DNA of 64,000 bases from Myxococcales bacterium 68-20. GTDB lineage: Bacteria > Myxococcota_A > Polyangia > Polyangiales > Polyangiaceae. Location: positions 1 through 64,000 of the forward strand of contig MKVQ01000020.1 of the NCBI GenBank assembly GCA_001899635.1, in the 5' to 3' direction. The notes under the pieces were generated by a model, which was not told the DNA's origin, made no database searches, and saw only the letters and a list, made by a program, of their open reading frames with translations. Both the position numbers and the translations under genes were made by a program. Shown here in pieces: positions 36,711-45,371 of this stretch (position 1 is the first letter of the stretch; the number at the start of each line of letters is the position of its first letter).

Positions 36711-37955
36711 ATGAAGGCTGTGGTCTTCCACGCGGTCGGCGACGTCCGGCTAGACGACGTACCCGAGCCCAAGCTCGAGGCAGCCACCGACGCGATCGTG
36801 CGGATCACGGCGAGCGCGATCTGTGGGACGGATTTGCACATGATCCGCGGAAGCCTCCCGGACATGAAGCCCGGCTCGGTCCTCGGCCATGAGGGCGTCG
36901 GCGTGGTCGAGTCGTTCGGCAACGGCGTGCGCAACCTCGTCGAAGGCGATCGCGTCGTGATCTGCTCGACGATCGGGTGTGGAGCATGCGTGTACTGCCG
37001 AGCGGGCTACTACTCCCAGTGCGACCGGGCCAACCCCAACGGCCCCGACGCGGGCACCGCGTTCTTCGGCGGGCCGGCGAGCTCCGGCCCCTTCCACGGC
37101 CTCCAGGCAGAGAAGGCACGCATACCGTTCGCCCACGTCACCTGCGTCAAGCTCCCGGACGAGGTGACCGACGAGCAGGCGATTCTCCTTTCGGACATCT
37201 TCCCGACGGCCTACTTCGGCGCGCAGCTCGCCGAGATCCGCCCCGGAGACTGCGTGGCGGTATTCGGCTGCGGACCGGTCGGACTCTTCGCGATCGCGAG
37301 CGCACACATGCTCGGAGCAGGCCGGGTTCTGGCGATCGACGACGTCCAGTCGCGGCTCGAGATGGCGCGCGCGCAGGGCGCGGAGGTGGTGAACTTCGAC
37401 GAGGAGGATCCCCTCGCGGCGATACGAGAGCTGACGGGCGGTAGCGGCGTCGATCGCGCGATCGACGCCGTCGGAGTCGATGCGCGGCGCGCTCATCACG
37501 GCCCGGCCGCGAGGCAGGTGAACGTCGCCGAGCTCGAGCGCGAGCGGGCAGCAGTTGCGCCGGAAACGCACCCGGACGGCGACAACTGGCAACCCGGGGA
37601 CGCCCCCTCGCAGGCGCTGAGCTGGGCCGTCGACGCCCTCGCGAAGGCCGGAACACTCTCGATCATCGGCCTCTATCCGGACGCCGCAAGGACGTTCCCG
37701 ATCGGGAAGGCGATGAACCGGAACCTCACGGTCAACATGGGAATCTGCGACCATCGTCGCTATGTCCCCGAGCTGGTGGAGATGACGCGCTCCGGTCGTG
37801 TCGACCCGGTCGTGATCCTCACCCAGCGAGAGCCGCTCGCGAGCGCGATCGACGCCTACAAGGCGTTCGATCGCCGGGCCTCCGGCTGGACGAAGGTGGA
37901 GCTCCGATCTCCGGGCACGAATGGCCAACAACCCTCGGCCTCACACCCGGTCTGA
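36711..37955 (+). CDS. Zinc-dependent alcohol/formaldehyde dehydrogenase-like protein
   Basis: 414 residues with an excellent AGGAGGAG site just upstream. Medium-chain dehydrogenase features: catalytic zinc ligands C38 (ICGTDLH) and H60-E61 (LGHEGVG), a structural-zinc set C90, C93, C96, C104, and a Rossmann motif VAVFGCGPVGLFA. The insertion and C-terminal region with DNWQPGDAPSQAL match glutathione-independent formaldehyde dehydrogenase-like proteins. It would oxidise an alcohol or aldehyde with NAD(P); the substrate is uncertain. The antiporter operon follows after 147 bp on the same strand. Confidence 0.85.
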   Translation: MKAVVFHAVGDVRLDDVPEPKLEAATDAIVRITASAICGTDLHMIRGSLPDMKPGSVLGHEGVGVVESFGNGVRNLVEGDRVVICSTIGCGACVYCRAGYYSQCDRANPNGPDAGTAFFGGPASSGPFHGLQAEKARIPFAHVTCVKLPDEVTDEQAILLSDIFPTAYFGAQLAEIRPGDCVAVFGCGPVGLFAIASAHMLGAGRVLAIDDVQSRLEMARAQGAEVVNFDEEDPLAAIRELTGGSGVDRAIDAVGVDARRAHHGPAARQVNVAELERERAAVAPETHPDGDNWQPGDAPSQALSWAVDALAKAGTLSIIGLYPDAARTFPIGKAMNRNLTVNMGICDHRRYVPELVEMTRSGRVDPVVILTQREPLASAIDAYKAFDRRASGWTKVELRSPGTNGQQPSASHPV

Positions 37956-38102
37956 CGCCCGTCTCGTCCTGAGCCACGTCGAACACCGCCCATCGCGCGC
38001 TCGAGCGGCGCGCGCATGCGCGGACGGCTTCGCCGCACCATGATCGCCGGCGAACAATGGCTGCGAAGTCCGTGGTGCGTGCGTTGCACCGCTCGAGACA
38101 TC

Positions 38103-38612
38103 GTGAGGACGAGCTGGACCAGAGCACCGCTGCGGCTCGTGTGGAATGCGCTCGAGGGCGCCGCCTACGTCGGTGCGTGGTGGCTCTTCACCGGTAGCTC
38201 GAGCGGCAGCGAGATCGTGGTCGGCGCCGCGGCCGTCACGCTCGCGCTGATAGCGTCGCACCTCGTCAGCACTCGGCTCGGCGCGCGGCTCCAGGGCAAC
38301 CTGGGGGCGATCGCCCAGGTGTGGCGAGTTCCCGCCCTGATCGTGTCGGGCACCTTCGACCTACTGAAGGTGCTCGCGAAGCATCTCCTGGGTCGCGAGA
38401 AAGCCAAGTCGCTCCTGCGCGCCGTTCGCTTCGTCCACTACGGGTCGACAACATCGGATCAGACGTTCCAGGCGCTCGCGACGGCCTACACGACCATCTC
38501 GCCGAACTTCGTCGTCATCGACGTCGATCCGCACGCGCGCGTCCTCCTCTTTCACCAGCTCGCTCCCACGGCCGTGCCGAAGGTCACGGTGAAGCTTGGA
38601 GCTTCGCCATGA
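38103..38612 (+). CDS. mrpE: Na+/H+ antiporter subunit E (MrpE/MnhE, MbhA-like)
   Basis: 169 residues from GTG 38103; ATGs at 38016 and 38040 would add an N-terminus of poor codon bias, and MrpE is usually about 160 residues. Membrane helices NALEGAAYVGAWWLF and IVVGAAAVTLALIASHL come first. The domain ends with YTTISPNFVVIDVD-x-(H)ARVLLFHQL, the family's typical TLTPGT-vxvd-like region. A membrane subunit of multi-subunit Mrp-type antiporters. The stop overlaps the next start as ATGA (38609-38612). Confidence 0.8.
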   Translation: MRTSWTRAPLRLVWNALEGAAYVGAWWLFTGSSSGSEIVVGAAAVTLALIASHLVSTRLGARLQGNLGAIAQVWRVPALIVSGTFDLLKVLAKHLLGREKAKSLLRAVRFVHYGSTTSDQTFQALATAYTTISPNFVVIDVDPHARVLLFHQLAPTAVPKVTVKLGASP

Positions 38613-38866
38613 GCCCCACTCCGTGGTTCGTCTCGGCAGCGGTTCTGCTCGTCGCGCTCGTCCCGTGCGGGCTCGTCGCTCTGCGCGGCGACGCAACCAA
38701 CCGACTCGTCGGCCTCCAGATGGGCACGGTCGTCACCACCATGCTCCTCGCAGTGCTTGCACAGGCCTTCCGTCGTCCGGCCTTCCACGATTTGCCGCTG
38801 ACGCTCGCGTTGCTCGCGTTCGGAGCGACGATCGTGTTCACCCGCTTCCTCGAGAGATGGCTCTGA
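38609..38866 (+). CDS. mrpF: Na+/H+ antiporter subunit F (MrpF/MnhF, MbhB-like)
   Basis: 85 residues, three membrane helices (SAAVLLVALVPCGLVALRG, NRLVGLQMGTVVTTMLLAVL, LPLTLALLAFGATIVFTRFL). The RGDATNRLVGLQ segment is the conserved cytoplasmic loop of MrpF, which normally reads RGPxxxDRVxxLD. The start overlaps mrpE by 4 bp. Confidence 0.85.
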   Translation: MSPTPWFVSAAVLLVALVPCGLVALRGDATNRLVGLQMGTVVTTMLLAVLAQAFRRPAFHDLPLTLALLAFGATIVFTRFLERWL

Positions 38867-39225
38867 TGCACGCTCTCGCCGCGGTACTCCTGCTCGTCTC
38901 GTCGTCGCTCACCCTCGTCTGCTCGGTCGGACTCGCGGTGATGCGCGACCCACTCCAGCGGCTCCACTTCCTCTCCCCACCGACGGCAATCTCGGCGCCG
39001 CTCCTCGCCGTCGTCGTCTTTCTCGATGGTCAGGGCGTGCAGGCGGGTCTCAAGGTCTCGCTCGTCGCGCTCCTGCTCGTACTGATGAACGCCGTGGGCT
39101 CGCACGCGACGGCCCGCGCGGTGCGCGTCCATCAACGCGGGCACTGGGAGCCGACGATCGACGACCACGTCGCCATCGTTCGCGAGGACGAGCCCTCACG
39201 CCGGAGCGAGCGAGATACGTCATGA
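38866..39225 (+). CDS. mrpG: Na+/H+ antiporter subunit G (MrpG/MnhG, MbhC-like)
   Basis: 119 residues from ATG 38866, in the TGATG overlap with mrpF; an in-frame ATG at 38857 would add three residues. Three helices, with VCSVGLAVMRDPLQRLHFLS matching the family motif GxxRxPDxYxRLHxxt. The C-terminus is longer and charged. Overlaps the next gene as ATGA (39222-39225). Confidence 0.85.
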   Translation: MHALAAVLLLVSSSLTLVCSVGLAVMRDPLQRLHFLSPPTAISAPLLAVVVFLDGQGVQAGLKVSLVALLLVLMNAVGSHATARAVRVHQRGHWEPTIDDHVAIVREDEPSRRSERDTS

Positions 39226-39515
39226 CCTCGAACGACGCCATCTCCGCGACCCTGCGCATTGCGGTCCTCCTGCTCGTCGCGGTCGGAGCGACGGGGGTGG
39301 TGTGCACGCGCGAACCGCTCTCGCAGGCGGTCACGCTCAGCTTCTACGGGCTCTTGCTCACGACGATGTTCTTCGTGTTCCAGGCCCCCGACGTCGCGCT
39401 CTCGCAGATCGTCGTCGGCGCAGTGGTTTCGCCGTTGATGATTCTGCTGACGCTCTCGCGAATCAGGCGCGGGAAGGCGCGCGAGACGAACCCCTCGCAA
39501 CCGGAGCGGTCGTGA
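39222..39515 (+). CDS. MbhD-like subunit (DUF4040, MrpA C-terminal piece)
   Basis: 97 residues, three helices. LSFYGLLLTTMFFVFQAPDVALSQ is the diagnostic MbhD/DUF4040 sequence, which in MrpA is part of the C-terminal region and in archaeal Mbh hydrogenases is the separate subunit MbhD. The start overlaps mrpG by 4 bp and the stop overlaps the next gene as GTGA (39512-39515). Confidence 0.85.
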   Translation: MTSNDAISATLRIAVLLLVAVGATGVVCTREPLSQAVTLSFYGLLLTTMFFVFQAPDVALSQIVVGAVVSPLMILLTLSRIRRGKARETNPSQPERS

Positions 39516-40288
39516 GCCCGCGGACACGACGCATCCTCTTCTATTTCGGGGCCGCCGGCCTGGTCACGATTCTCGCGTGGGGTGTGCTCGGACTGCCCGC
39601 GTACGGCCAATACCAGGGCCCATACGGAGACCTCGTGTCATATGCGGCCGTCCAGTCGCGCCACGCAACGGACGTCGTGAGCGCGGTGAACTTCGACATC
39701 CGCGCGATCGACACGCTCGGCGAGGAGTTCATCCTGTTCACGTCCGTGATGGGCGTCGTGCTCCTCTTGCGCAAGAGGGTCGAACCGAAGGACGTGGACG
39801 AGGCCGCGGCCGACGTCGCAACCGGACGCGAGAAAGAGCCACCGAGCAACGCCGTGCGCCTCCTCTGCCTCGGCCTGGTCGGTGTGAGCGTCCTCTTCGG
39901 ACTGTACATCGTGACGCACGGGCAACTCACACCGGGAGGCGGCTTCCAAGGTGGGGTCGTCCTCGCCACCGTGCCGCTGCTCGTCTACCTGGCGGCTGAC
40001 GTTCGAGTCCTCCACCAGATCGCCCCGCGAAAGCTCGTCGACGCGGGCGAGGCGCTCGCGGCGGGCGCGTTCATCGGCCTCGGCTTGGTCGCGGTCGCGC
40101 TCCAGGAGCCCTTCCTGACGAACTTCTTGCCGCTCGGAACGACGGGTCGAATCGACTCGAGCGGGACGATCATGGCGATCAGCATCGTCACCGGGATCGA
40201 AGTCGGCGGTGCGTTCGTCGTTCTTCTCTCGTCGTTCCTGGCCGAGACGCTCGAGCGGATACCCGAGGAGCACCGAGGCGAGCCGTGA
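39512..40288 (+). CDS. mrpB: MbhE-MrpB fusion subunit
   Basis: 258 residues from GTG 39512. The first ~85 residues carry VVSAVNFDIRAIDTLGEEFI, the MbhE-type segment that in MrpA forms the extreme C-terminus. After a charged linker (~86-115) an MrpB domain follows: VLFGLYIVTHGQLTPGGGFQ, GGVVLATVPLLVYLAADVRV and a C-terminal GxEVGGAFVVLLSSF. In Pyrococcus Mbh these are separate proteins MbhE and MbhF; here they are fused. Overlaps mrpC by 4 bp. Confidence 0.8.
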   Translation: MSPRTRRILFYFGAAGLVTILAWGVLGLPAYGQYQGPYGDLVSYAAVQSRHATDVVSAVNFDIRAIDTLGEEFILFTSVMGVVLLLRKRVEPKDVDEAAADVATGREKEPPSNAVRLLCLGLVGVSVLFGLYIVTHGQLTPGGGFQGGVVLATVPLLVYLAADVRVLHQIAPRKLVDAGEALAAGAFIGLGLVAVALQEPFLTNFLPLGTTGRIDSSGTIMAISIVTGIEVGGAFVVLLSSFLAETLERIPEEHRGEP

Positions 40289-40641
40289 CCGCGCTCGTGA
40301 CGCACCTACCGTTCTTCGTCGCGATCTGGGTGCTCGCGTGTGGCCTGTACGGGATCATCACGAGCAAGAACCTCGTGCATCTCGTCGTCTGCGTGGCGGT
40401 CCTCCAGAGCTCCACGTACGTGCTCTTGGTCCTCGTAGGTTTCCGCGAGGGAGGCGCGGCGCCCGTGTTCTACGATCTCCCGCTCGGCACGCTGGTCGTC
40501 GATCCGATCGTGCAAGCGCTCATGCTCACGGACGTCGTCGTGGAGGCGACCGTGATGGCGCTGCTCCTGGCGATGGTGGTCCGCGTCTACGAGCGGACGG
40601 GGGTGCTCGACCCCGATGCGCTGCTGAGGCTGCGCGGATGA
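40285..40641 (+). CDS. mrpC: Na+/H+ antiporter subunit C (MrpC/MnhC, MbhG-like)
   Basis: 118 residues from GTG 40285, homologous to NuoK. Three helices (FFVAIWVLACGLYGIITSKN, LVVCVAVLQSSTYVLLVLVG, DPIVQALMLTDVVVEATVMA). The VDPIVQALMLTDVVV-x-AT segment is the conserved MrpC motif (PxPQALVLTAIVI). Overlaps mrpD as ATGA (40638-40641). Confidence 0.85.
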   Translation: MTALVTHLPFFVAIWVLACGLYGIITSKNLVHLVVCVAVLQSSTYVLLVLVGFREGGAAPVFYDLPLGTLVVDPIVQALMLTDVVVEATVMALLLAMVVRVYERTGVLDPDALLRLRG

Positions 40642-42449
40642 CCGCGAGCGCCTGGACCCCCGCTCCGGTTGCCCTTCCGCTGCTCGCCGCTGCCGCCGTC
40701 GCGCTCTTCGGCCACAAGGTCCCGCGCTTCGTGCGAACGGTCATCGCGTTCGCGACCTCCGCCTTCACGGCGATCGTCACCGCGGGGCTCGCGTGGGCCT
40801 CGCTCGGCGATCCGATCGTCTACTGGTTCGGTGACTGGGCGCCACGCGGACAGATCCCGCTCGGAGTCTGTTTCGTCGTCGATCCGATCGGCGCAGGTCT
40901 CGCGGCGCTTGCGAGCGTGCTCGTCACCGCGGCGGTGACCTTCGCAGACAGGTACTTCGATGACGTCCAGGCCGTCTTCCACGTCTTGATGCTCGCATTC
41001 CTCGGCGCGATCGCCGGGTTCTGTCTGACCGGCGACCTCTTCAACCTGTTCGTCTTCTTCGAGCTGATGAGCGCGGCTGCATTTGCACTCTGCGGCTACA
41101 AGAGCCGAGAGCCCGGCCCGCTGCAGGGAGCGATCAACTTCGGCGTCACGAACACGATCGGCGGCTTCCTCGTCCTCGACGGTCTCACGCTGCTCTACGG
41201 TCGCACGGGCGCGCTCAACCTCGCGCAGATCGCACGCACGCTCGGCGGAGCACACGACGGCCTGGTGATCGCCGCGTTCGCGCTCATCACGTGCGGCTTC
41301 TTCGTGAAGGCCGCGGTCGTGCCCCTTCACTTCTGGCTCCCCGACGCGCACGCCGTCGCCCCTACTCCCGTCAGCGTCGTGTTCTCCGGCGTCATGGTCG
41401 AGTGCGGCGTCTACGCGGTGGCCCGGCTGTATGCGACCGTGTTCGCACCGTCGTTTGCCGGCTTCGTCCCGCATGCACGCGGCCTGATCATCGGGGCTGG
41501 CGTGATCACGGCGCTCGTCGGAGGAGTGATGTGCTTGGCGCAGCGCCATCTCAAACGCCTCCTCGCGTTCTCGACGGTCGCGCACGTCGGCGTGATGGTC
41601 TCCGGTATCGGATTGCTCGACGCGCGAGCCTTCGGCGGTGTGGCCACCTACGTGCTCGGTCACGGGCTGGTGAAGTCTTCTCTGTTCCTCACAGCCGGCA
41701 TGTATCTCCATCGCCTCCGGTCGGTGGACGAGCTCGAGCTCCGCGGGCGCGGTGGCGCGCTCCCGGGAGCGCTCTTTCTCGCAGGCGGCCTCGCGCTCGC
41801 GGGCGCGCCGCCGTTCGGGACGTTCGGCGGAGAGTCGGAGATCGAAGCCGCGGCCGATTCGCTCGGCTACGGGTGGCTCGGCATCGTGTTCACCATCGCC
41901 GCAATCCTCACCGCCGGAGCGGTGCTGCGCGCGGCCATGCGCATTTCGTTCGGCTGGGGCCCCTCCGACGGAGAAGAGGACCGCGGCGAGAGGAGCGAGG
42001 AGACCGAGACGCGGCCAGGACCCGGTCTCCCGCTCGCGATGTGGGTGCCGGCAGCAGTCCTCCTCGCGCTGGCCTTCGTGCTCGGCACTCTGACCGGGCT
42101 CGATCGGGCGCTGCGCGAGAGCGCATTGCGATTCCAGGACAGCTCGGCCTACGCAGCGCGCGTCCTCGATGGAGTCGTCTCTGCCGTGCCTTCGGCGGAA
42201 CCAAGCGCGGACGACGGATCGTCCCTGCCGCGCTCGCTTCTGGTGGTCGTGCTCTCGTGCGCGACCGCATTCGCCGCGCTGTTCCGGGAACGGATCCCCG
42301 CTGGTGTGCGCAAGCTTGCGGTGGCTCTGCTGGGCGGAGCGCTGCGCCGTCTGAGGGCTCTTCAGAGCGGGCACGTAGGTGACTACGTCACGTGGCTCGT
42401 TCTCGGCGTCGCTTGCTTCGGCGCACTCAGTGCGCTGCTCCTCCGGTGA
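40638..42449 (+). CDS. mrpD: Na+/H+ antiporter subunit D (MrpD/MnhD, MbhH-like)
   Basis: 603 residues, about 14 or more helices; homologous to NuoL/M/N proton-pumping subunits. Key residues visible: E142 in VFFELMS, K224 in FFVKAAVVPLHFWLPDAH with H231 and H238, and the SVVFSG region after APTP. The C-terminus is longer than usual (MrpD is about 500 residues), with a charged loop (EEDRGERSEETE) and two more helices. It is the only large antiporter-like subunit in the operon; there is no NuoL-like MrpA. Confidence 0.9.
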   Translation: MTASAWTPAPVALPLLAAAAVALFGHKVPRFVRTVIAFATSAFTAIVTAGLAWASLGDPIVYWFGDWAPRGQIPLGVCFVVDPIGAGLAALASVLVTAAVTFADRYFDDVQAVFHVLMLAFLGAIAGFCLTGDLFNLFVFFELMSAAAFALCGYKSREPGPLQGAINFGVTNTIGGFLVLDGLTLLYGRTGALNLAQIARTLGGAHDGLVIAAFALITCGFFVKAAVVPLHFWLPDAHAVAPTPVSVVFSGVMVECGVYAVARLYATVFAPSFAGFVPHARGLIIGAGVITALVGGVMCLAQRHLKRLLAFSTVAHVGVMVSGIGLLDARAFGGVATYVLGHGLVKSSLFLTAGMYLHRLRSVDELELRGRGGALPGALFLAGGLALAGAPPFGTFGGESEIEAAADSLGYGWLGIVFTIAAILTAGAVLRAAMRISFGWGPSDGEEDRGERSEETETRPGPGLPLAMWVPAAVLLALAFVLGTLTGLDRALRESALRFQDSSAYAARVLDGVVSAVPSAEPSADDGSSLPRSLLVVVLSCATAFAALFRERIPAGVRKLAVALLGGALRRLRALQSGHVGDYVTWLVLGVACFGALSALLLR

Positions 42450-43861: not shown

Positions 43862-44293
43862 TCACGCGAGGGTGTCCTGCCGGTACTTCGCGACGAGCTC
43901 CTCGCGCGTCGTCACACCGAGCTTCGCGCTTGCGCGTGCCACGAGCACGCGGACCGTCGAGTGCGCGAGACCGAGCTCGTAGGCCGCTTCCTTGTTCGTC
44001 TGGCCCATCGACAGACAGGCGACGACCTGTCGCTCGCGCTCGGAGAGCTTGGCGGTCGGCTTCGTCGCCATCGCGTTCACGCGCGCGACGACGTAGTGCG
44101 AGCCGTCTCTCTGGAACTCGTCCACGAGCGTCCAGCGAGCGCGCACCAGCGCCTTCCACGACGGGAGCGCACGCTCGGGTGCGCCGCGAAGGTCGGTCCG
44201 CGCCCGGAGGATGCCGACCGCCGCGTCCCGCAGCGCCTCGCGTTCGGGCTCTGCGGTGCGCTCGAGGTGCTTCACCTCCCCAGCGGGGGTCAT
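43862..44293 (-). CDS. LuxR-type helix-turn-helix regulator
   Basis: 143 residues from ATG 44293 (MTPAGEVKHLER). The last ~65 residues are a LuxR/GerE DNA-binding domain: LSERERQVVACLSMGQTNKE, AAYELGLAHSTVRVLVARAS and AKLGVTTREELV. The N-terminal ~75 residues (LPSWKALVRARWTLVDEFQR) may be a small sensory or dimerisation part; no receiver domain. The start codon overlaps that of the divergent serine hydrolase gene (CATG), so the two probably share a control region inside each other's 5' ends. Confidence 0.8.
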   Translation of the reverse strand: MTPAGEVKHLERTAEPEREALRDAAVGILRARTDLRGAPERALPSWKALVRARWTLVDEFQRDGSHYVVARVNAMATKPTAKLSERERQVVACLSMGQTNKEAAYELGLAHSTVRVLVARASAKLGVTTREELVAKYRQDTLA

Positions 44294-45371
44294 GATCGCT
44301 TCGGCGTCGGCGATGCCGTCGGTCCCGGACGTCGCGCGCGTCCCGCCTGCATCACCGAAGGTCGATCTCGGGAAGCTCAACGTGAACATCCAGAATGCGC
44401 TCGTAGATACGACGTTCGGCTACGCGATGCAGATCCGCAAGAACGGCCAGCCGGTCGGGACGCGCATCTGGAAGAAGGCGCGTGGCTCCAATGACGGGAA
44501 CAGCGCCTGGAACCTGGACACGCGCATGCACGTCGCGAGCGTGAGCAAGTTCATCACCGCGGTCGCGATGGTGAAGATGCTCGACGCCAAGGGCGTGAGC
44601 GTCGACGCCAAGATCTTGCCGTACCTTCCGAGCTTCTGGCCCAAGGGCTCGAACGTCGACAAGATCACGTTCCGTCAGCTTCTCCGTCACACCTCCGGCT
44701 TCGTCACGGGCGGCTCCGCGTCGGACTACACCACGATGAAGTACTGGACGGCGCTCGGCGTCGGCAACAACAACGGCGAGCCGCACTACGAGAACATGAA
44801 CTTCGGCTTGTGCCGGATCCTGATCTCGACGCTCGGCGGCCTGCCCCCGGTGCTGCTCGTCAACGAGCCGACGTACGACTACGTCACGATCGCGTTCTTC
44901 CGGAGATACACCCAGGACAACGTCTTCACGCCCTCGAACGTCGCCGCCGTGAGCTTCGCACCGGTACCCTTCAAGGTCGACGCGCTCGCGTATTCGTCGA
45001 ACATCGATGCAAGCGGCTGGAGCTCGGGAGATCTGTCGTCGATGGCGGGTGGCGCCGCGTTTCGTCTGAGCGTCAACGAGCTGCTCGACTTCATGGGCAC
45101 GTTCCGCCGGAAGGGCACGATCGTCTCCGTCAACCGCGCGCAGGAGATCCTCGATCAGGGTCTCGGCCTCGACGTCATCGACGATACGCCGGCCGGTCGC
45201 ATCTACGACAAGAACGGACGCTGGCGGAACAACGGCAACACCGAGCAGAGCCTCGCGATGTTCCTACCCGACAACGTGGAGCTCGCCGTCTTCGTCAACT
45301 CGCCCATCGGCCCCTCGGCGGCGGACCTGAGGAAGACGATCCGCGCGGCGTACGACGCGTCGATCAAGTGA
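44292..45371 (+). CDS. Serine beta-lactamase-like hydrolase without signal peptide
   Basis: 359 residues if started at ATG 44292; ATG 44313 is also in frame. Motifs S83-V-S-K86 (VASVSKFITAV) and Y166-E-N168 are present. HTSGF at ~133-137 is the usual family sequence after the first helix. The C-terminal third-motif region is less clear (KNGRWRNNGNTEQS). No signal peptide precedes the domain, unlike the related gene at 27236-28378, so the 5' end may be misread or truncated into the regulator. Substrate unknown. Confidence 0.75.
   Translation: MIASASAMPSVPDVARVPPASPKVDLGKLNVNIQNALVDTTFGYAMQIRKNGQPVGTRIWKKARGSNDGNSAWNLDTRMHVASVSKFITAVAMVKMLDAKGVSVDAKILPYLPSFWPKGSNVDKITFRQLLRHTSGFVTGGSASDYTTMKYWTALGVGNNNGEPHYENMNFGLCRILISTLGGLPPVLLVNEPTYDYVTIAFFRRYTQDNVFTPSNVAAVSFAPVPFKVDALAYSSNIDASGWSSGDLSSMAGGAAFRLSVNELLDFMGTFRRKGTIVSVNRAQEILDQGLGLDVIDDTPAGRIYDKNGRWRNNGNTEQSLAMFLPDNVELAVFVNSPIGPSAADLRKTIRAAYDASIK

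Follow-up and report, generated by a model that had tools for sequence, protein, structure and literature searches.

We analysed a window of 64,000 nucleotides from Myxococcales bacterium 68-20, a soil myxobacterium (positions 1 to 64,000 of contig MKVQ01000020.1), which carries a seven-gene operon of Mrp/Mbh type that lacks mrpA. The genes all lie on the + strand at 38016/38103-42449, in the order mrpE-F-G-mbhD-(mbhE+mrpB)-C-D, each overlapping the next by 1–4 bp; coordinates and Pfam matches agree on this order, as the original prediction had it. Pfam matches were above cut-off for six of the seven genes. The weak one is the mrpE/mbhA-like gene (38016..38612, with an alternative start at 38103 that leaves the start ambiguous), whose MNHE match (E=2e-4) fell below cut-off and which is assigned from its mrpE position and from hidden Markov model matches in homologous loci. 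It overlaps by 4 bp the mrpF/mbhB-like gene (38609..38866; PF04066, E=1e-12), whose product aligns with MBS (sulfur reductase) subunit B and with Af MrpF. Next come the mrpG/mbhC-like gene (38866..39225; PF03334, MnhG, E=2e-11), with a 1 bp overlap, and, with a 4 bp overlap, a gene for an MbhD-like subunit (39222..39515; PF13244, E=1e-15), which is NuoJ-like and corresponds to part of transmembrane helices (TM) 17–21 of MrpA. The fifth gene (39512..40288, again overlapping by 4 bp) fuses an MbhE-like part (PF20501, 6e-4, below cut-off) to an MrpB/MbhF-like part (PF04039, MnhB, 7e-19). Its product aligns end to end with MbsE (6u8y_E, E=7e-17), which backs the MbhE part and bears out the predicted fusion. 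Two genes with 4 bp overlaps complete the operon: one for an mrpC/mbhG/NuoK-like subunit (40285..40641; PF00420, E=1e-15; 6u8y_G, E=1e-16) and mrpD, for the single large antiporter-like subunit of 603 aa (40638..42449; PF00361, Proton_antipo_M, E=5e-53).

No redox partner was found for this module. Downstream of the operon the window holds small unrelated genes, none of them for a hydrogenase, a 4Fe-4S protein or a second large subunit, confirming that the hydrogenase half is missing there; nor does any gene of a hydrogenase/redox half (MbhI-N) lie beside the operon in the window or recur as a conserved neighbour in the 80 homologous loci described below. Profile searches across the genome (11.9 Mb, 98.4% complete) found Proton_antipo_M genes only as the operon mrpD, as L, M and N of complex I (contig C15), as two genes in a Hyf-like group-4 cluster (C16) and as one odd gene (C19). 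NuoH- and 49-kDa-type genes were confined to C22 (complex I) and C16, plus a weak NuoH-like protein on C19. Neither a second MnhB/MbhE homologue nor any other MrpA was found in the genome beyond the operon, and viral contigs yielded no homologue. From this inventory, the search that the original prediction had proposed for NuoL/MrpA and redox membrane subunits, it follows that the genome offers neither an MrpA that could act in trans nor an unpaired redox half in need of a module. We therefore dropped the idea of a missing MrpA supplied in trans, as well as that of docking on complex I or the Hyf-like cluster, each of which has its own large subunits.

The large subunit, at 603 aa compared with ∼490 aa for a normal MrpD, has a two-TM C-terminal extension, a feature absent from the original prediction. 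In an AlphaFold model of high confidence (pLDDT 93.7, pTM 0.94), residues 2–512 superpose on MrpD (VIA-align Z 45, root-mean-square deviation 1.6–2.0), and the alignment to NuoL (Z 41) continues to residue 585, by way of TM15 and a 21-residue amphipathic helix. As modelled, the subunit is an MrpD-type core of 14 TM with a NuoL-type end of TM15, amphipathic helix and TM16. This end would cap the face that is covered elsewhere by the N-terminal domain of MrpA (MrpA-N) or by a redox module. MbhI was not named for the extension in the structure match lists, an absence that we do not count as evidence. In the large-subunit tree the homologues form one clade (100/100) that joins MrpD (92/80); MrpA/NuoL lie separately, as do the three large subunits encoded in EFG-MbhD/E/B-C-D-D-D operons. 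This placement on the MrpD side, together with the lack of MrpA elsewhere in the genome, upholds the claim that no NuoL-type MrpA is present.

We scanned 84,980 species genomes for relatives and analysed 80 loci of 99 confirmed matches. Loci were found through the MbhE motif, so that conservation inside the motif is biased, while gene order and the residues of the other subunits are not. The 80 loci represent at least nine bacterial phyla (Acidobacteriota, Actinomycetota, Pseudomonadota, Planctomycetota, Verrucomicrobiota, Nitrospirota, Thermodesulfobacteriota, Vulcanimicrobiota and Myxococcota). The seven-gene order is common to them, and none has a second large subunit; some loci end at contig ends or look frameshifted, and L131 is without C and most of D. 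Gene order in relatives had been named beforehand as a possible refutation of the original prediction; no relative of this type carries mrpA, and the compact order is kept. Within 184 genomes of the order, close homologues were found only in the window genome and in Minicystis rosea, whose module has an identical layout at 48–52% identity. Other members of the order have no module or an ordinary Mrp operon with a fused MrpA of ∼990 aa (for example a congener, G120); the EFG-MbhD/E/B-C-D-D-D operons (L043-L051), with three large subunits from three separate clades, occur in other families within that order. Of 379 Myxococcota drawn evenly, the window genome alone scored. A tree of three concatenated subunits mostly tracks phyla (9 changes for 9 groups, against a shuffled mean of 31) and places the window beside Minicystis, inside a mainly myxobacterial group. 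Because the order is shared by 80 loci and the tree broadly tracks phyla, we conclude that the single-large-subunit system is old, sparse and maintained, and is not a remnant.

By composition the system is a variant of group 3 Mrp. One operon holds an MrpD-type large subunit with MrpB, C, E, F and G and the homologues of the C-terminal part of MrpA (MbhD/E), there is no mrpA, and the large subunit has the TM5 glutamate and TM7 lysine. The nearest described system is the stand-alone Mrp of Pyrococcus furiosus (Pf1147-53), mrpEFGBB'CD without mrpA, assigned to group 3 (PMC8415708). It too has seven genes in the same order, one MrpD-type large subunit and no energy-input module, but its fusion joins MbhD to MbhE rather than MbhE to MrpB, and the two-TM extension of the large subunit is a feature of the present clade. 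Deletion of the P. furiosus operon gave greater sensitivity to acidification; Na+ is its coupling ion, and the driving force was left open (PMC8415708). Several proposed H+/Na+ residues are conserved there with the membrane-bound hydrogenase (MBH) and MBS (PMC8415708), whereas the TM8 lysine and the MrpC histidines are replaced here, as compared through the published description. MBH (MbhA-H, 6cfw) and MBS (6u8y) resemble the operon in subunit set and order, and among PDB sequences they match its large subunit and MrpC best. The fusion also has a counterpart in MbsE, in which MbhE and MbhF are joined (PMC8415708). The operon differs from both in lacking MbhI-N and the hydrogenase or sulfur-reductase half, and in the NuoL-like end of its large subunit. 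Group 1/2 Mrps (MrpA-G; 6z16, 7qru, 7d3u) share all the small subunits and the MrpD fold, with MrpA TM17–21 present here as separate MbhD and MbhE parts; they differ in having MrpA TM1–16 (the NuoL-like N-terminal domain), another gene order and coupling residues that are remodelled here. The L043-L051 operons likewise start with E-F-G, followed by the MbhD/E/B block and C, but their large subunits number three, each having the TM8 lysine and each belonging to a different clade. The Mbh-like, non-standard order noticed originally is thus confirmed, although it is not without precedent, given the P. furiosus Mrp, the MBS fusion and L043-L051. The clade extends the P. furiosus-type Mrp to many bacterial phyla while differing at coupling residues. 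The mrpA-less architecture was already known from the archaeal precedent; the bacterial clade with its conserved residue departures looks new, and a literature search reaching few subscription journals found that precedent and nothing on the bacterial clade.

We propose that the seven genes encode a complete, autonomous membrane complex of this mrpA-less type. MrpE, F, G and B, MbhD, MbhE and MrpC would form the cation-handling and coupling part. The one MrpD-like subunit would be the sole proton channel, with TM15, the amphipathic helix and TM16 of the same chain closing its outer face in place of MrpA-N or a redox module. Most likely the complex would exchange protons for a cation, driven by ion gradients alone, a form of secondary transport that would serve pH or ion homeostasis. 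We hold it moderately probable that the operon encodes such a self-sufficient antiporter coupled to H+, having a single proton channel and a cation site that is predicted to be remodelled. The single large subunit of the original prediction is confirmed and antiport remains the best reading of it.

Several kept residues accord with this proposal. The TM5 glutamate (E142) is kept in 68/68 sequences and the TM7 lysine (K224) in 67/68, both being required for Mrp antiport (PMC5703873). The MbhE part retains D67/E71, which by motif are the Mrp exit carboxylates D792a/E796a. In the other small subunits the MnhB motif is kept, MrpG H34 is invariant, and MrpE has conserved E37, P134 and H151 (numbered from 38103); MbhD has glutamine or glutamate at the position of MBH E69 (Q62 here) and an invariant Pro71. 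Several other observations weigh against the proposal. The TM8 lysine, which all MrpA, MrpD and multi-D sequences of the reference set have, occurs in 0/68 members of the clade (E in 47, E255 here; Q in 6, P in 4, and others), and the TM12 residue is variable. In MrpC a QSSTY motif puts S42/Y45 where the cation-site histidines H37c/H40c sit, with Y45 in 77/77, although histidines of this type are not universal in other Mrps or in MBH/MBS either; H37/H40 of the Anoxybacillus MrpC coordinate K+ (PMC7419157). At the MrpF D35f position we found E in 39 and Q in 22 of 75 sequences, never Asp, and Gln here. Two actinobacterial modules (L096, L138) have E/F/G through C but stop after mrpC, the DNA beyond encoding no large subunit. 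MrpA is essential in the B. subtilis Mrp, as that work is cited in PMC8415708, and the formate dehydrogenase association described below could signal a redox partner.

New acidic residues accompany these replacements. Asp at D83 in TM3 of MrpC is fixed in 76/77 sequences and absent from every other MrpC in the comparison, and the MrpC S80 position is Glu (E87, TM3) in 42/77. The proton entrance thus appears kept, and the centre and cation site rebuilt. Since the TM8 lysine and both MrpC histidines are replaced clade-wide while the TM5 glutamate, the TM7 lysine and the new MrpC aspartate are kept, the complex probably carries another ion, or couples it by another route, than Na+/H+ Mrp antiporters do. 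Canonical Na+/H+ antiport is doubtful because the TM8 lysine, MrpC H37/H40 and MrpF D35 are replaced and TM12 is variable; as two residue features of described Mrps (the TM8 lysine; H37c/H40c with D35f) are lacking, we do not claim a Na+/H+ antiporter.

A recurrent neighbour in relatives is formate dehydrogenase (FDH). The molybdopterin enzyme FdhA adjoins the module in 11/80 loci, from Actinomycetota, Acidobacteriota and Planctomycetota. All ten of its genes that were read are interrupted by one in-frame TGA in an ENQARI-(U)-HS motif, marking a selenocysteine FDH (NCBIfam NF041513, over cut-off). The gene is often divergent from mrpE, with a gap of about 90–540 bp, and is followed in several loci by Fe-S and NrfD genes. 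FdhA of 50–65% identity was found in 13/21 other module carriers (11/19 without two picked for adjacency), including both other myxobacterial carriers examined, against a baseline of 3/379 Myxococcota (E<=1e-180), counts that are inflated by sampling rich in metagenome-assembled genomes and by shared ancestry. In an acidobacterial order it was found in 24/200 genomes and in 3/3 module carriers. Fisher tests of the co-occurrence (p=0.0015 for this order, 0.013 without the seed genome; also 0.0004) assume that genomes are independent and were run once the pattern had been noticed, and so give a lead, not proof. The association suggests that in FdhA-bearing relatives the module serves formate- or CO2-linked pH or energy metabolism. 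The window genome has no FdhA of the linked type (best E=2e-7) and no tRNA-Sec above cut-off, from which it follows that the link is not obligatory. Close FdhA is also lacking in 8/21 carriers, including two Streptomycetaceae (L100, L124) and two Acetobacteraceae (L118, L134).

Thermococcus formate complexes include Mnh/Mrp modules. By analogy, the operon could supply the ion-translocating half of an electron-transfer complex whose other half is encoded at another locus and, in many relatives, would be the selenocysteine FDH (FdhA, Fe-S subunit, NrfD). The adjacency in 11/80 loci and the excess of FdhA among carriers over both baselines speak for this. We nevertheless consider it rather unlikely: the operon has no docking subunit (NuoH/MbhM, MbhI-N), the FDH is mostly on the opposite strand or unlinked and has its own NrfD subunit where seen, the co-occurrence counts are inflated, and neither the window genome nor the eight carriers noted above have a close FdhA. 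The suggestion of the original prediction that the module docks on a complex encoded elsewhere finds no support in this genome, where complex I and the Hyf-like cluster each bring large subunits of their own and neither an FDH of the linked type nor tRNA-Sec was found, and gains indirect backing in relatives, where FDH adjoins or co-occurs. About equally tentative is a wider picture of a distinct bacterial pump, widespread in soil bacteria, with one antiporter-like subunit, a non-canonical proton path and a new cation site, which in many carriers would be linked to the selenocysteine FDH, by physical contact or by way of the quinone pool, and would here work without it.

The same residue replacements that trouble canonical antiport (MrpC QSSTY with D83 and E87, the MrpF position that is never Asp, and the absent TM8 lysine) could instead point to a pH-gated proton conductance, or to a carrier of another ion such as a divalent cation. 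There is a precedent in the group 1 Mrp of Thermomicrobium, reported to exchange Ca2+/H+ and not monovalent cations (PMC5703873). However, a surviving cation path would be expected to keep the exit carboxylates, MrpG H34, MrpE P134/H151 and the MnhB motif, all of which are present, and the new acids could rebuild a monovalent site; we give such a device only a small chance. An ordinary Mrp operon decayed after loss of mrpA might be imagined from the standard fused MrpA of ∼990 aa in the congener, but the same order in 80 loci, the identical Minicystis rosea layout and the deep clade of the large subunit's own leave local mrpA loss refuted and its probability negligible.

How proton flow is coupled to ion transport in complex I/Mrp-type subunits is debated, as is the need for the TM8 lysine, for two proton channels and for an energy-input module. 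A seven-subunit complex with one channel, a replaced cation site and neither TM8 lysine nor MrpA would be a natural minimal test system. Its carriers are mesophilic and partly cultured (Minicystis, Streptomyces, Kitasatospora, Geomonas), and the FDH association offers a concrete physiological lead.

Upstream of the operon by 60 bp lies a gene for a zinc-dependent alcohol/formaldehyde-dehydrogenase-like protein (36711..37955, +; PF08240/PF00107). Its closest NCBIfam family is TIGR02819, far below cut-off, and a 60% identical gene lies upstream of the module in L082. It is possibly co-transcribed with the operon, its membership being uncertain. Among recurrent neighbours in relatives are a short-chain dehydrogenase gene (L064, L082, L090, L097, L100 and 12 more loci, including others with a GH15 trehalase-like gene) and zinc-dependent alcohol dehydrogenase genes. 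The short-chain dehydrogenase and GH15 neighbours may reflect stress islands, an idea that we set aside because the three families occur very commonly and no single neighbour appears at every locus.

Other features of the genome were noted in passing. Complex I genes are split across contigs, with L, M and N on C15 and NuoH and the 49-kDa subunit on C22. The Hyf-like group-4 cluster (C16, 6997-15200, +) has a catalytic subunit that seems to be without the NiFe CxxC pairs (ETIAGDTSIAHTW; SFDLSYCGSDL), and is probably not a hydrogenase but an Ehr-type complex. On C19 (6769-13196, -), near MoxR/DUF58-like genes, three adjacent large membrane proteins make up an odd complex I-like cluster: a NuoM/L-like protein (PF00361), a protein of 754 aa with no Pfam match, and a PDZ-domain protein with a weak NuoH-like region. 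Within the window, an open reading frame for a LuxR-type regulator (43862-44389, -) overlaps head to head with one for a beta-lactamase-fold serine hydrolase (44211-45371, +), whose true start is probably further downstream.

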